Below are positions 23,441 to 31,103 of a DNA stretch of 39,031 nucleotides, piece by piece. The stretch is taken from contig CAIKKJ010000152.1 in assembly GCA_903827955.1 (NCBI GenBank), forward strand, positions 1 through 39,031, in the 5' to 3' direction. The position numbers and the translations under genes are program-made. The number at the start of each line of letters is the position of its first letter. Position 1 is the stretch's first letter. This stretch comes from an uncultured Verrucomicrobia subdivision 3 bacterium. GTDB lineage: Bacteria; Verrucomicrobiota; Verrucomicrobiia; Limisphaerales; UBA11358. The notes under the pieces were generated by a model, which was not told where the DNA came from, did no database searches, and saw only the letters and a program-made list of their open reading frames with translations.

Positions 23441-24589
23441 TTAAGAGCCTTTTTCCATCTTCGCCAGGAACTCGTCGTTGGTCTTGAATTTCTTCAAGGC
23501 CGCCGTGAGGGTTTCCATCGCTTCGATGGGATTCAAGTCCACCATCGTGCGGCGGAGTTTGCGGATGGCTTCGAGATTTTTCGCCGGGAAAAGTTTTTCT
23601 TCCTTGCGCGTGCCGGACTTCGGAATGTCAATCGCGGGATATAAACGGCGGTCGGAAAGCTTGCGATCCAAGATCAACTCCATGTTGCCGGTGCCTTTGA
23701 ACTCCTGGAAAATCAATTCATCCATGCGCGAACCCGTGTCCACGAGCGCCGTCGCGATAATCGTGAGCGAACCGCCGTTCTCAATCTTACGCGCAGAGGC
23801 GAACATCTTGCGCGGAATCTCCAGCGCGCGGGCGTCCACACCGCCGGACATCGTGCGACCGGAACCGCCGTGAACGGAGTTGTAGGCGCGGGCAATGCGC
23901 GTGAGCGAATCCATCAGCACGAAAACGTCCTTACCCGATTCCACGATGCGGCGGCAGCGCTCGATCATGAAACGCGATAGGCGAACGTGCGTGTCGATTT
24001 CCATGTCGTTCGAGGACGCAACAACTTCGGCTTTCACCGAGCGTTGAAAATCGGTGACTTCCTCGGGACGTTCGTCAATCAGCAGCACCATGCAATGCAC
24101 TTCGGGATGGTTCGTGGTGATGGCGTTGCAAATCTGTTTCAGGATGGTGGTCTTGCCCGTGCGCGGCGGCGCGACGATGATGCCGCGCGTTCCCTTGCCG
24201 ATGGGCGTGACGAGATCAATCACCCGCGTCTCCATCGCATCCGGCGTGGTCTCCAGCTTGAATTTTTCGATCGGGTCAATCGAAGTCAGGTTCTCAAAGC
24301 GCACAGCCTTGGTGTAATCCTGAAACGCCATGTCATTGACCTTGTCCACGGTCTTAAGCTGCGGGCTCGTGCCGCGATGCGGCGGCTGCGTGGCACCCTC
24401 GACATAGCTGCCTTCGCGCAAAAAACTGCGGCGGATGGTGTCGGGCGTGACAAAAATGTCGGTGGGCTTGGGATGGAAATGGTTTTGCGCCGTGCGCAGA
24501 AAACCAAAGCCTTTCTCGGAAATTTCGAGAAAGCCTGAACCGTAGTTGGGATTGACGGCTTTTTCGCCGTTCGCTTGCGTATCGCTCAT
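23441..24589 (-). CDS. rho: Transcription termination factor Rho
   Basis: 382-residue hexameric RNA helicase. The RNA-binding OB fold has GSGFLEISEKGFGFLR and DIFVTPDTIRR. The ATPase domain has TPIGKGTRGIIVAPPRTGKTT (Walker A), LLIDERPEEVTDFQR and FVLMDSLTRIARAYN (Walker B). GGVDARALEIPRKMF and EFKGTGNMELILDRKLSDRRLYPAID (secondary RNA-binding site region) follow. It lacks the N-terminal helical Rho_N module of E. coli Rho and carries only about 18 residues before the OB fold. It has a candidate promoter at 24699-24727 and its own terminator. Confidence 0.97.
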   Translation of the reverse strand: MSDTQANGEKAVNPNYGSGFLEISEKGFGFLRTAQNHFHPKPTDIFVTPDTIRRSFLREGSYVEGATQPPHRGTSPQLKTVDKVNDMAFQDYTKAVRFENLTSIDPIEKFKLETTPDAMETRVIDLVTPIGKGTRGIIVAPPRTGKTTILKQICNAITTNHPEVHCMVLLIDERPEEVTDFQRSVKAEVVASSNDMEIDTHVRLSRFMIERCRRIVESGKDVFVLMDSLTRIARAYNSVHGGSGRTMSGGVDARALEIPRKMFASARKIENGGSLTIIATALVDTGSRMDELIFQEFKGTGNMELILDRKLSDRRLYPAIDIPKSGTRKEEKLFPAKNLEAIRKLRRTMVDLNPIEAMETLTAALKKFKTNDEFLAKMEKGS

Positions 24590-25970: not shown

Positions 25971-27371
25971 ATGAAATCTTCAAACCAAAAAATCTATTCC
26001 CGCCGCAATTTCTTGAAGGCCGCGGGCGCCGCCGTGGTTTTGCCGGCCATTCTGCCGGGCTGCGCCTTGGGGCGTGACGGCAAAAAAATCAGCGCGAACG
26101 ACAAGATTAATATCGGTGTCGTCGGCTGGGGCATGCAGGGACCGAGCAATACAAAGTCGTTCATGTTTGAAAAAGATTGCCGCGTCGTTGCCGCGTGCGA
26201 CCTCGACAAAAATGCGCTGCAAGCCGCCGTGGACACCGTCAACGACAATTACGAAAACAAGGACTGCGCCGCCTATCACGATTACCGTGAGATGTTCGCG
26301 CGGCCCGACCTCGATGCGGTGATGCTCGCCGTGCCGGATCACTGGCATGCCATCGTCGCCACCGCCGCAGCGAAACGCGGCATGCATATCTACGGTGAAA
26401 AGCCGCTGGCAAAAACCATCGCCGAGCAGCAAGCCATCGTTCACGCGGTCGAAAAAAATAAAATCATCTGGCAGACCGGCTCGTGGCAGCGTTCGCAGTC
26501 GCCGTTCCACAAAGCGGCGGAGATTGTCCGCAACGGTTTGATCGGCGAAGTGACGCACGTCGAAGTGGGTCTGCCGAGTGGCCACACGGATTTCAAACGC
26601 ACCAAGCCGGAACTCGTGGAAAAACTTTCCGCGCTCAACATCACCGACCTTTCCAAAATCCGCCCCGGCTCAGACGCATGGAAAATCGCCGTCACCGAAC
26701 CGCCCGCCGAACTCGATTACGAAACGTGGATCGGGCCGTCCAAGATGGAGGAATACATCAAGCAGCGCGTCCACATGAACTGGCGCTGGAATTACAACAC
26801 CGGCGGCGGGCAGTTGCTCGACTGGGTCGGGCATCATGTGGACATCGCGCACTGGGGCTTGGGCTTTGACCACGACGGGCCGTCGGAAATCGAAGGCCAC
26901 GGGGAATTTCCCGAACGTGACGCGTTGTGGAATACCTGCACGAAGTATCGCATCGAGTTGAAATATCCGCGCAACATCACTATGACCATCGCCGGCGGCC
27001 ACGGCGACATCAAAAGCGGCACGAAATGGATCGGCACTGAAGGCTGGGTCTGGGTGGATCGCGGTGGCTTCGATGCCTCCAATCCCGAATGGAAAAAAGG
27101 CAAATCACTGCCCGAGGAACTTCGCAAAGTGAAACTCATCCAGTCGCCCGGCCACTGGCGGAATCACCTCGACTCCATCCGCAGCGGCGAACCGACGATT
27201 GCGCCGGCGCAAACCGCGCATCACTCGGCGACGCCCGGCCACCTTGGTTTGATTTCCATGCTCACCGGCCGGAAAATTCATTGGGACGTGAAGCACGAAA
27301 AAATTATCGGCGATGCCGAGGCGAGCAAATTGTTGAGCCATGAATACCGCGCGCCGTATAAACTGGCGTAA
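25971..27371 (+). CDS. Tat-exported Gfo/Idh/MocA-family oxidoreductase (1)
   Basis: 466 residues. The Tat signal SRRNFLKAAGAA is followed by LPGC, a possible lipobox, so it may be a periplasmic lipoprotein. The Rossmann dinucleotide site is INIGVVGWGMQG, and the family's EKP motif is intact in YGEKPLAKT. A C-terminal alpha/beta domain holds NWRWNYNTGGGQLLDWVGHHVDIAHWGL, with the His residues expected near the active site. Members oxidise or epimerise sugars with a tightly bound NAD(P); substrates of the exported PVC types are mostly unknown. Weak or no ribosome-binding site. It is followed by a strong terminator. Confidence 0.88.
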   Translation: MKSSNQKIYSRRNFLKAAGAAVVLPAILPGCALGRDGKKISANDKINIGVVGWGMQGPSNTKSFMFEKDCRVVAACDLDKNALQAAVDTVNDNYENKDCAAYHDYREMFARPDLDAVMLAVPDHWHAIVATAAAKRGMHIYGEKPLAKTIAEQQAIVHAVEKNKIIWQTGSWQRSQSPFHKAAEIVRNGLIGEVTHVEVGLPSGHTDFKRTKPELVEKLSALNITDLSKIRPGSDAWKIAVTEPPAELDYETWIGPSKMEEYIKQRVHMNWRWNYNTGGGQLLDWVGHHVDIAHWGLGFDHDGPSEIEGHGEFPERDALWNTCTKYRIELKYPRNITMTIAGGHGDIKSGTKWIGTEGWVWVDRGGFDASNPEWKKGKSLPEELRKVKLIQSPGHWRNHLDSIRSGEPTIAPAQTAHHSATPGHLGLISMLTGRKIHWDVKHEKIIGDAEASKLLSHEYRAPYKLA

Positions 27372-27385
27372 GTTTTTCAAAATCA

Positions 27386-27420
27386 AAAAAGCCGTTGCTG
27401 AATTCCAGCAACGGCTTTTT
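27386..27420 (+). terminator. Intrinsic terminator after the first Gfo/Idh/MocA gene
   Basis: Perfect stem AAAAAGCCGTTGCTG (27386-27400) and CAGCAACGGCTTTTT (27406-27420) with loop AATTC, running into Ts. It is nearly symmetric and could also stop minus-strand transcription from the adjacent ncRNA. Confidence 0.92.
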
Positions 27421-27440
27421 TGTTTTCAAGCTTCAGGCCT

Positions 27441-27490
27441 CTAAAAACAAAACAATAAGTCCCGGTTCAACCTTGCGGTCAAACCGGGAC
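27441..27490 (-). terminator. Intrinsic terminator of the candidate ncRNA
   Basis: On the minus strand a 14-bp stem (arms 27490-27477 and 27472-27459) with a GCAA loop and two G-U wobbles is followed by the T-rich tract TTATTGTTTTGTTTTT. The plus strand reading would have two A-C mismatches and no T run. Confidence 0.8.
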
Positions 27491-28315
27491 AAATGGGGGA
27501 TGGGAGTTCGCCACACTCTCTTTCCCGTCCCAGCATTTGGCGCGCTCCTCACGGAGGCTGCTGGATTCCCGACGCCATTCTCCACGGCAAGCGGAGTTCT
27601 CGGCCTCGTAGCAGGGCCGTCCGTGGTCTTGCGACCATCGGATTTTGAGTGAGGCTTTTCAGCTCGCTTCGGCTGGTGGTTGCGCCACCGGCCTGCGAAC
27701 CAGGTCAAGACACGCCTGTAATTTTTCGTTCGCGTCTTGACCACTGGCTCCGGGTCAGCCACCGATTTTGTCGGTGCGTTCGCCCGAGGCCACGGGTCTC
27801 GCCTCTTCACTCTCAAGCTGCTTTTTATTCACAGTCCAGCGGTGTCGTTTTTAACATCGCCGGCGCTTGGAAGTTTTTCACGCGGCTTGCCTGGCCTTCG
27901 TGTTCTTCCCGATGCGCACGCTCTTTTTGTCCACCTTTCGGCGTTTTTCTTTTGGCGGCCCCGACTTTTTATTTTCAGACCCGCCAGAGTCATTCGCACC
28001 GTGCTGATACGCAGTAGCAACTGTTCACCCTCTGGGTGACTGCGATTCATTCAGGCTCGAAACCTGCCTGAACTACTTGATTCAACTCGCAACGGTTTCT
28101 CATCGCTGCTTGCTGCCGGATTCCTCATTCGCATTTGACAGTGCGCGAACACCGCCAGAGAAACCGGTGAATTCTGCCTCGCCGAACTTGCGCTCGGTTC
28201 AGAGGAACCAGGACAACCAGCCTGTCCCGATTTTTCCCCGGTCACCCGGGATTATCAGTGGAACGCGCGATTTCAATGTTACTCTCGACCGCCGCCCCGT
28301 TCGTTCAATGAACTG
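27441..28315 (-). ncRNA. Candidate large structured non-coding RNA (~0.8-0.9 kb), class unknown
   Basis: No convincing protein gene is present, but the minus strand forms many hairpins. From the 5' side they are: CCCGG-GTGA-CCGGG (28250-28237), GGACA/TGTCC (28227-28211), CCGAGC-GCAA-GTTCGG (28197-28182), CACCG/CGGTG (28169-28150), TCAGGC/GCCTGA (28071-28051) and nested CGCAGT/ACTGCG with TCACCC/GGGTGA (28044-28010). Then come CACCGA/TCGGTG (27776-27760), GGTCAAGAC/GTCTTGACC (27742-27703), GGCCGGTGG/CCACCAGCC (27693-27671), TGGTC-GCAA-GACCA (27637-27624) and CCAGCA/TGCTGG enclosing CTCC-GTGA-GGAG (27564-27530). The terminal 14-bp stem is capped by GCAA (27490-27459) and followed by TTATTGTTTTGTTTTT. 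GNRA loops and G-U wobbles exist only in this sense. The 5' end is not determined; it lies between about 28250 and 28345. Confidence 0.65.
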
Positions 28316-28371
28316 ACTACATCCTAGCAGAAATTTTGCATCTGCCCATGATTTGATATGCACAGGTTATG

Positions 28372-28467
28372 CACCGTAAAATGACGGTGAAGAAACGGTG
28401 AATAAGTGAGAATCACACCGTCTGCCAATGCGTTTTCTATTTCACCTCCAATAATTATTCACCGTTT
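28372..28467. promoter_or_regulatory. Cluster of five ACGGTG/CACCGT motifs with a 13-bp inverted repeat
   Basis: ACGGTG occurs at 28384 and 28395, and its complement CACCGT at 28372, 28416 and 28460. The two outer members extend to a perfect 13-bp inverted repeat, AAACGGTGAATAA (28393-28405) and TTATTCACCGTTT (28455-28467). It lies in the AT-rich space between the divergent ncRNA candidate and the secreted-protein gene. It could be an operator array or the ends of a ~75-bp miniature element. The rest of 28316-28607 holds no gene. Confidence 0.5.
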
Positions 28468-28607
28468 TTTCGGCCGGAAAAAATCGCAGTGAACAAGTCG
28501 TCGCTAAAACTTTTTGAAAAAACAGCTGCACAAAACCGTTTTGCATCCCCGCCGCAAAAAGTTATCTTCCCGCCATCAGATTATTTTCGAAACAGTCCGG
28601 CTCGGGT

Positions 28608-31103
28608 ATGGCGAAAGTCGCGCGACTGGCCATTGCGTTGCTGGCGTTCGCCTTCGCCGCCTCGGCACGCACCGTGCCTGACCCGGCGGATGCCACGGGG
28701 TTCTTCACCACCGTCGCGGATAAATTACTGCGCAGCACCTTCAGTTTCGGCATCACCAACATTCCCGTGCAGACGAACGGCGTCTTCACCCACACGCCCG
28801 CCATGCAACGCCTGCTGCAAGTCGCGGCGAACGTGCGCGACGCGGCGACGACGAATTTTTTTCCAACCGTATTTCGCCCGATATTTTTCAACGACGGTCA
28901 GGGAAATATTTTCATCACCGGCTACCAGCAAGTCGCGAGTGTGAACGGCATCAGCGATCCGCAATTGGCCGCGCCGTCGGACATCACAGCCTTGCCCGTC
29001 GGAGCCAGCACGAACAATATTTACGGTGTGCCGTGGATTATCGGCGCGAAAAAATTCCTGCCGAGTTTTAATGAATTTTATTCGTTCAACACAATGCAGG
29101 TTACGCGGAAATTACAATTCAGCCGTCAAACCGCACCCTTGTCTTGGTCTGGAGCTTCCAAAAACCTTTACATCACAAACCAAATGCTCGTGATGAGCAT
29201 CACCAACCACCTTGGATTTTCCTTTTGGAATTCTTACGCGACGAATTATCCCGGCGGTGCGCTGACGATTTATGCAAACGATTATATCCGCATGCGGCTG
29301 TCTTATGGCGGATACAGTTACGCATACACGAACGACTATGTTTATTTTAACCAATTAAATTCATGGCCCGGCGCAAGTTTGGATAAAAACCTGCCGCCAG
29401 CACAACGGCAGGCAAATCCAAGCTCATTCATCGCCGGTAATTTTGATTTTCCGTTCGTCCACGAAGCCGCAATTAACCTCGACAATACCGGCAACGTGGC
29501 CGGCTTCACCATCGAAACTTTCAATACCAACGTCACCTCACTGCCGCCGTTTCCAAATTTTGAATTAGACATCACCAACCGGTTTCAAGCCTTCATCCTC
29601 GACGGCAGCAACGTCGTGGACTACGTCCAGTTTTATGGACCGCAGCAGGTGCGAAATCTGGGCGATGATTTGAAAGACCCAGACTACGTTGCCGGCAATA
29701 TAAATTCACTGATGTGGAGCACAAACTTGAATGGCTTAAATCAGAACGGTGTGAACTGGGGCGTGCAAAATCAAATTACCGTCTCGCAAATAGATCGGAA
29801 TGTTCCACCCGGCGGGCGCTGGACTGTGCCACCCAACTTTCCTGCTGGAGTGCCGCAAACAACACTTGCAATAGCTACAATGTTCGGCGGATTTTTTAAT
29901 TCCGTCTGGTTTTTTGGTGGCAGGACCTACACCAACACCAACCTCGTCCAGCAAGCGCCATTCACCCCGACTCGCACCGTCGTATCACCGACGCTTTGGG
30001 TGGTGAATGATCCATTGGTGCATTATTTGACGAGCGATTTGCTCCAGCCAATGGCTGAAACGTATGGCGTCATAAACGGCGTCGCCCGCAGCGACGATTT
30101 TTCAATTCCACCCATCGTCACTCCCAATCTCGCCTCGCTGCCAGACCGCTTCCAACCGTGGGGACGAAATGCCTTTATGGAAAATCTCGCCGGCGTGCTG
30201 CACGACTCGCCCGACAACGCGAGCTACAACCTTGCCTATCGCGACCCGCTCATGTGGACGCCGGACGACTGGAATTTCCCCGCGACCAACGCGCTGCCGC
30301 TCACCACGCTCGGCCGCGTGCATCGCGGCACGCCGTGGCAGACGATTTTTTTGAAGGCCACCAACATTTTGAATTACACCGATGTTGCCCAAGCCAATCC
30401 CGCCGTCGGCCTCACCACTTGGGAAAATTGGACTGGTGATTTCGATGCCGCCGATGCCGCGCTGCTGTCGCCGACCAGCGACTGGCGGCTCGCAGCATTA
30501 CTCGCAGAAATGTTCAATCCCGGCGACAGCACGCAACTTGGATCCGTCAACACCACCAACTGGCCCGCGTTGCTCGACAGCCTGGCCACGCTCACGAATT
30601 CGACGGCAGTGCCATATTATGATTTCCCGCCGGAATTGGATGCGTTCGTAATGACCAGCAATTCGCCGCAATCCACCTTCGTCGCCGCTGCGCTGATACA
30701 AGTTCGCGCCAACCAGCCGGGGCAAAAATATTTTTCCGCCGGCGATATTTTAAGCACGCCGGAAATTTCCGAACAGTCGCCTTGGCTGAACCGCAGTGAC
30801 GCAAATTTTCCCAACGACCAGATTGATTTTGGAATTTCCGACGACGCTTACGAAATGATTCCCGCGCAACTGCTGCCACGTCTGCGACCGGATTCCAGCG
30901 GCGCGCTGGTTTTCAGCAACGGCGGCTGGCGCGCGCAGTTCAGCGGCAGCGACGCGTTCGACTACACCTTGCAAACCTCCACCAATCTGGTGAACTGGGA
31001 AATCGTGAGCACCAACCAGCCCACGCAGGGCAATTTTTCCGCGCCCATCGCGCCGCTGCCCGGCGGGCAAAATCAATTTTTCCGTTCGGTGCTGTTGCCA
31101 TGA
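28608..31103 (+). CDS. Large secreted protein preceding a pseudopilin (Verrucomicrobial type)
   Basis: 831 residues, exported through an N-terminal signal (ARLAIALLAFAFAASA). It is rich in Asn, Thr and aromatic residues, as surface proteins of this group often are. GRVHRGTPWQTIFLK resembles the C-terminal region of large proteins found beside pilin-like genes in Verrucomicrobia (the 'Verru_Chthon cassette' A type); this resemblance is from memory and moderate. The last ~60 residues (DYTLQTSTNLVNWEIVS) form a short beta module common at the C-termini of Verrucomicrobial exported proteins. The stop codon overlaps the pseudopilin ATG (ATGA), so the two are translationally coupled and probably work together in a pilus-like or type II secretion assembly. 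Function is otherwise unknown. Confidence 0.7.
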   Translation: MAKVARLAIALLAFAFAASARTVPDPADATGFFTTVADKLLRSTFSFGITNIPVQTNGVFTHTPAMQRLLQVAANVRDAATTNFFPTVFRPIFFNDGQGNIFITGYQQVASVNGISDPQLAAPSDITALPVGASTNNIYGVPWIIGAKKFLPSFNEFYSFNTMQVTRKLQFSRQTAPLSWSGASKNLYITNQMLVMSITNHLGFSFWNSYATNYPGGALTIYANDYIRMRLSYGGYSYAYTNDYVYFNQLNSWPGASLDKNLPPAQRQANPSSFIAGNFDFPFVHEAAINLDNTGNVAGFTIETFNTNVTSLPPFPNFELDITNRFQAFILDGSNVVDYVQFYGPQQVRNLGDDLKDPDYVAGNINSLMWSTNLNGLNQNGVNWGVQNQITVSQIDRNVPPGGRWTVPPNFPAGVPQTTLAIATMFGGFFNSVWFFGGRTYTNTNLVQQAPFTPTRTVVSPTLWVVNDPLVHYLTSDLLQPMAETYGVINGVARSDDFSIPPIVTPNLASLPDRFQPWGRNAFMENLAGVLHDSPDNASYNLAYRDPLMWTPDDWNFPATNALPLTTLGRVHRGTPWQTIFLKATNILNYTDVAQANPAVGLTTWENWTGDFDAADAALLSPTSDWRLAALLAEMFNPGDSTQLGSVNTTNWPALLDSLATLTNSTAVPYYDFPPELDAFVMTSNSPQSTFVAAALIQVRANQPGQKYFSAGDILSTPEISEQSPWLNRSDANFPNDQIDFGISDDAYEMIPAQLLPRLRPDSSGALVFSNGGWRAQFSGSDAFDYTLQTSTNLVNWEIVSTNQPTQGNFSAPIAPLPGGQNQFFRSVLLP

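Follow-up and report, generated by a model that had tools for sequence, protein, structure and literature searches.

The window analysed here is a stretch of 39,031 nucleotides of DNA from an uncultured Verrucomicrobia subdivision 3 bacterium. It carries a gap, whose bounds were confirmed, between open reading frames at 25971-27371 (+) and 28608-31103 (+). For this gap the original prediction had proposed a large structured non-coding RNA on the minus strand, equipped with its own terminator and belonging to no class that its author recognised. A cmscan search assigns the minus strand at 27503-28257 to MISL RNA (RF03079) with a score of 611.4 bits against a cut-off of 274.6, and the match runs over positions 1-751 of the 751 in the model. 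The first part of the proposal is borne out by this full-length covariance-model match, by covariation and by terminator-like hairpins in relatives. The second is not, since the Rfam search that the prediction itself had suggested returned a known class, and an unknown RNA class is rejected by the full-length match. The RNA in the window is MISL RNA, present as a single copy in the source genome, and nothing sets this copy apart from the class.

MISL and one tRNA are the only Rfam matches above cut-off in the whole window. The earlier ruling-out of tmRNA, RNase P, SRP and group II intron was thus correct, none of these giving a match above cut-off in the window. The same holds for OLE, GOLLD and ROOL, which in addition show no match up to E = 1 in 27380-28600. 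The minus strand of 27441-28315 has a folding energy of -365 kcal/mol, where shuffled versions average -309.3 (sd 5.8, z = -9.6), and 0 of 20 shuffles were as stable as the native fold. Five GNRA loops had been listed and all are found at hairpin tips where they had been placed; that at 27473 is the terminator loop, whilst those at 27629, 28188, 27549 and 28242 are loops of the Rfam structure. A protein-coding origin of the gap was considered and rejected, as it is RNA pairing that conservation follows.

Weinberg et al. 2017 is reportedly the source of MISL. In excerpts of the Ribonanza paper 'MISL RNA' is named as an Rfam example, with one window of the RNA chemically mapped (PMC10925082), and within the open-access literature searched, as far as its excerpts extend, this is the only place where the name was found. 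No description of a MISL leader or of pseudoknots was found in that literature, a set to which the original description of MISL does not belong.

We propose a MISL gene of about 870 nt, transcribed on the minus strand from approximately 28315 to approximately 27446 and extending beyond the RF03079 model at both ends. The borders originally drawn, 27441-28315, suit the conservation footprint better than the Rfam match at 27503-28257 does, because they include a 5′ element (28299-28313), a hairpin that we call P0 and the terminator, all of which lie outside that match. The 5′ element is a conserved, boxA-like 15-nt sequence, GTTCATTGAACGAAC in the window (minus strand) with a family consensus of GTTCNTTGANAGAAC, and the relaxed pattern GTTCNTTGANNGAAC has one match in the source genome, at 28299-28313. 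All 124 non-redundant upstream regions have a best match to the consensus of at least 10 of the 13 fixed positions; the match is perfect in 99 and reaches 12 of 13 in 22. Shuffled upstream regions (2,480) attain at most 11 of 13, on five occasions, a control that is lenient because the consensus had been derived from these very sequences. The spacing from the element to the model start is mostly 51-62 nt, extending to 82-158 nt in five genomes (G128, G163, G158, G119 and G366). P0 occupies 28258-28298 (-), between the element and the Rfam model. A hairpin covers at least 60% of this interval in 115 of 115 relatives, with a mean folding energy of -17.1 kcal/mol compared with -10.1 kcal/mol for shuffled sequences; nine of the 124 were left out of this count as the element is placed elsewhere.

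Upstream of the element a -10-like hexamer, TAGGAT at 28321-28326 (-), was read by eye from the genus alignment, and TATGAT or similar occurs in several members of the genus. We infer a transcription start near 28314-28316. A sigma-70-type promoter scan of the minus strand gave no site. Further upstream of the inferred promoter is a conserved block, TGTGCATATCAA at 28353-28364 (-), which is possibly an activator site. With a strict pattern it was found in 14 of 53 loci, namely 13 of the 21 from the genus and one from another family, G271. At the other end, the intrinsic terminator at 27459-27490 (-) has the predicted 14-bp stem, GCAA loop and T-rich tail (TTATTGTTTT). Of 161 loci, which were not made non-redundant, 151 have a terminator-like hairpin downstream of the model, compared with 15 of 161 when shuffled. 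A second inverted repeat at 27383-27422, with T after it on the plus strand and A before it, is suited to terminate the convergent plus-strand gene and also to back up the MISL terminator.

Covariation was assessed on an alignment of 91 non-redundant MISL sequences of 735-790 nt. They belong to a set of 110, of which the 19 long ones were kept off the alignment as a held-out set; 34 partial rows of 121 given by nhmmer were dropped before counts were made. The window presents 171 of the modelled pairs, 163 of them standard, grouped in 26 helices. Covarying helices in homologues, a check named in the original prediction, are evident: for 125 of the 171 modelled pairs both partners are changed in two or more of the 91 sequences, although the counts take no account of the tree. 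Sixteen of the 26 helices have 90% or more of their cells paired across the 91 relatives. The ten weaker helices, with 57-89% of cells paired, fall mainly in the middle region, together with two GNRA-capped hairpins. The less structured middle that had been described is real across the family, five helices within 27843-27985 being paired in 67-89% of cells (91 relatives). The GNRA-capped hairpins at 28182-28197 and 27542-27558, paired in 65% and 57% of cells respectively, are outside the features that the family shares.

A search for additional covarying stems gave six antiparallel runs, none in the nested structure of the model, with covariation sums of 129, 90, 84, 50, 48 and 24. Parallel runs of the same kind served as a null that keeps the relatedness of the sequences; two were found, with sums of 29 and 18, and any parallel run had at most 32. 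Four of the six are clearly pseudoknots, which join the 5′, middle and 3′ parts of the RNA (all minus strand). PK1 pairs AGTTGC (28017-28022) with GCAGCT (27816-27821), and PK2 pairs CTGTGA (27829-27834) with TTACAG in a hairpin loop (27716-27721). PK3 is formed by TCGCG (28144-28148) and TGCGA (28129-28133), and PK5 by TGCTA of a hairpin loop (27609-27613) and TGGCG (27573-27577). H4 is a nested extension helix (27860-27863 with 27836-27839, spanning 27836-27863) around the hairpin at 27843-27856. PK6, which would join GGCA (27888-27891) to TGCC (27586-27589), is a weak candidate for a loop-loop contact as its covariation sum of 24 is below the 29 of parallel runs and so not above the null. 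In the 19 divergent held-out sequences the fractions of paired cells are 90/114 for PK1, 94/108 for PK2, 71/93 for PK3, 69/76 for H4, 95/95 for PK5 and 50/76 for PK6. Slid registers give 0.04-0.65, and PK1, PK2, PK3 and PK5 are above all of them. The pseudoknots lie outside the nested structure printed by the RF03079 model, the comparison being with that structure only. This analysis adds to the known class the four pseudoknots, H4, the weak PK6 candidate and, beyond the Rfam model, the 5′ element, P0 and the terminator. MISL is among the largest orphan RNA classes of bacteria, and the leader of 15 nt found across the phylum, the four pseudoknots and the outline of a complete transcript offer experimenters defined ends, a candidate transcription mechanism and constraints on the fold.

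In a phylum sample of 387 genomes, 31 have a match to MISL at E ≤ 0.001, 28 of them above the cut-off, and two of the matches fall in other classes of Verrucomicrobiota. None was found in 14 control genomes. A pattern scan of named-species genomes gave at least 118 contigs, all with MISL by profile search, some of them incomplete; among the contigs listed 116 are titled Verrucomicrobiota and two only 'bacterium'. The closest named copies among the matches listed are L118 (88%), L125 (86%, subdivision 3) and the Limisphaerales L119 and L137 (81%), which by themselves would most likely place the window in a Limisphaerales-type (subdivision 3) bacterium. Cultured carriers include Haloferula rosea (contig L133). 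MISL occurs in 31 of 40 genomes of the window's genus and, with stricter filters, in 25 of 41 of family f5. It is not universally required, since none was found in nine of the 40 genus genomes and 16 of the 41 from f5; the genus genomes lacking it include G295, G388, G396 and G406, each at least 93% complete. Two f5 genomes, G330 (C44, C5) and G155 (C5, C33), carry two full-length copies each. In several genus assemblies (L228-L235; G423, G399, G395, G404, G415 and G418) MISL is at a contig edge, and in G395 and G404 it is split in pieces over two contigs.

The neighbouring genes bear on whether MISL acts in cis or in trans. In f5, 19 of 22 loci have the GTPase TypA downstream of MISL in the same orientation, an arrangement seen in none of the other loci, whilst in the window's genus the same-strand downstream genes are a PLP enzyme in 14 and Rho in 11 of 21 loci, some flanks being short. 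The Rho-type gene of the window, at 23441-24589 (-), encodes a 382-aa termination factor (Rho_RNA_bind and ATP-synt_ab), and such a gene is downstream of MISL in ten further genus loci out of the 21. On the promoter side, the 831-aa open reading frame at 28608-31103 (+) belongs to no Pfam family and does not adjoin MISL in any other locus examined, whether from the genus or from another family.

A same-strand downstream neighbour kept inside each family is what might be seen if MISL were a cis-acting leader or attenuator of that gene, TypA in f5 and the PLP enzyme or Rho in the window's genus. We judge this very improbable. The neighbours differ from family to family, with midpoints approximately 0.6-5.7 kb off, a terminator-like hairpin follows MISL in 151 of 161 loci, and in the window a convergent gene stands between MISL and the PLP enzyme. 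No cluster of open reading frames around MISL is found in more than two families. An RNA that is fixed in place within lineages, and has no constant partner gene, favours action in trans, and MISL would then form the core of a folded ribonucleoprotein and not be a cis-regulator of its neighbour. A different role would be that of a large ribozyme or homo-oligomeric RNA machine with no essential protein, like GOLLD, ROOL and OLE, bacterial RNAs whose job is unknown or partly known. The size of MISL, a fold with several pseudoknots and conserved unpaired stretches recall these ornate large RNAs, and on the basis of excerpts from the literature MISL is, like them, a rare, large, stand-alone and pseudoknotted bacterial RNA (PMC12286853). 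In contrast, the RNA of the window has no Rfam match above cut-off to any of the three families, and we consider this role unlikely, albeit less so than cis-regulation. The explanation that we prefer overall, with a probability of about 0.62, is that of a stand-alone MISL gene, the RNA being the trans-acting core of a ribonucleoprotein, preceded by a putative boxA-type leader.

The case for that leader comes from a comparison with rRNA. The first 11 nt of the MISL 5′ element GTTCNTTGANAGAAC are similar to boxA, the rRNA antitermination signal, which according to passages of two papers recruits NusB/S10 and confers Rho resistance (PMC5725501, PMC10250234). Leaders of 16S rRNA were located with a 16S 5′-end pattern (14 of 26), used in place of a 16S family search that missed complete f5 genomes (eight of 22 genomes matched). 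Of the 15 genomes examined, 13 have in these leaders a boxA-like word of the form G(C/T/A)TC(T/A)TT(G/T)A(A/T)A. It reads GCTCTTTGAAA in the source genome and GCTCATTGAAA in G409 of the same genus, GTTCTTTGAAA or GCTCTTTGAAA in f5 and GTTCTTTGAAA in f11 and f14, with looser words in f35 (GATCTTTGATA) and f28 (GTTCTTTTAAA, the latter by eye). The two leaders of G319 have no boxA-like word within 420 nt, and the leader available for G277 is only 93 nt long.

Within each of these 13 genomes the MISL element was compared with the boxA of the rRNA leader, and it matches at 8, 10, 11, 11, 9, 8, 8, 8, 9, 9, 9, 9 and 9 of 11 positions. The window's element is a weak match to its own rRNA boxA, with eight of 11 and a C at position 11. 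The gamma-proteobacterial consensus, as given in a passage of the cited paper, is GYTCTTTAANA (PMC5725501), and we relaxed it to GYTCTTTRANA to allow for the G of local rRNA leaders. The relaxed form is fitted by only 17 of 124 non-redundant elements, and by 114 once any base is allowed at position 5; the window's element departs from it at positions 5 and 11. Two positions of the MISL element vary freely, 5 and 10, and the second of these coincides with the N of the published gamma-proteobacterial consensus. In the seven families outside f1 and f5 all ten loci have T at position 5, as would suit an element that has drifted from an ancestral boxA. Like the boxA of rRNA leaders, the MISL element is just behind the inferred start and has a G(T/C)TC.TTGA.A core with 8-11 of 11 matches; unlike it, position 5 is often C or A and an extra GAAC arm follows. 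By eye no boxC-like TGTGCGATT stretch was seen.

Another reading of the same 15 nt is a 5′-terminal hairpin (GUUC, loop, GAAC) serving to shield the end of the RNA or to bind a protein specific to MISL; its likeness to boxA would then be distant or due to chance. In 46 of 53 loci all four pairs between the GTTC and GAAC arms can form, which would suit a plain hairpin or a site for a protein. Moreover GAAC (positions 12-15), conserved in MISL, has no counterpart in the boxA of rRNA leaders from these genomes, and the strict boxA consensus holds for only 17 of the 124 elements. Nevertheless the arms display no covariation, and in seven of 53 loci one pair is broken yet the TTGA core is kept. That the variable positions are 5 and 10, the latter the N of the consensus, and that the boxA match is 11 of 11 in f11 also argue against the hairpin, to which we give roughly one chance in three. 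The comparison with rRNA leaders makes it nearly an even question, leaning slightly towards no, whether the MISL 5′ element is a boxA.

Rho resistance is what a long untranslated RNA such as MISL would need. The putative signal may load NusB/S10 onto RNA polymerase, a step of which we are less sure than of action in trans, and it would let the long, untranslated, highly structured MISL reach full length uncut by Rho, as rRNA does. A more far-reaching form of the proposal is that a non-ribosomal, stand-alone RNA carries a phylum-wide rRNA-type boxA leader and is made by the rRNA transcription machinery, its most conserved part being absent from the model; this we put forward tentatively, as somewhat doubtful. 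If the leader is a boxA, Nus-factor antitermination would be extended to a large orphan non-coding RNA, and such leaders might mark other long untranslated RNAs.

Profile and Rfam searches also place MISL, in the sense orientation, at the 5′ end of four viral contigs: L184 (1-813, 543 bits with Rfam), L186 (2-482), L271 (47-321) and L272 (33-155). Their MISL stretches are 81-95% similar to bacterial copies. Genes for RNA-phage maturation proteins occur on L184, L186 and L271 (that of L184 under the Pfam cut-off) and for RNA replicases on L184 and L271, whilst L272 has a tail-sheath gene. The contigs start 61 nt (L184), 46 nt (L271) and 32 nt (L272) before the model, and by eye L184 and L271 have no 5′ element; L272 is too short to tell. 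A further viral contig, L185, was matched by the first MISL pattern yet has no MISL, and a further pattern matched 67 viral stretches, namely L184 and 66 others with MISL in none of the 66.

A role for MISL as a phage gene was considered, a bolder variant being a true capture of MISL, at the 5′ end, by RNA phages of Verrucomicrobiota. The four joins have break points that all differ, at profile positions of about 124, 279, 631 and 748, and the similarity of L186 to its phage relative L353 begins at the join, 3 bases into L353. A further 158 phage contigs (L273-L430), akin to L184 in the replicase or to L186 in the maturation protein, have no MISL at nhmmer E ≤ 10, many of them being incomplete at their 5′ ends. 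Since the break points differ, the partners are unrelated and phage relatives lack MISL, the joins are very probably chimeras, products of cDNA synthesis (reverse-transcriptase template switching) or of assembly. Counting against this, no other Rfam RNA is joined to 18 MISL-free viral contigs. A scan with an RNase P pattern, run as a control, matched six viral contigs, and MISL was found in none of them. RNA phages have no DNA stage, and MISL on L184, L186 and L271 must accordingly have been read from RNA. Chimeras with RNA phages would thus imply, indirectly, that MISL is transcribed.
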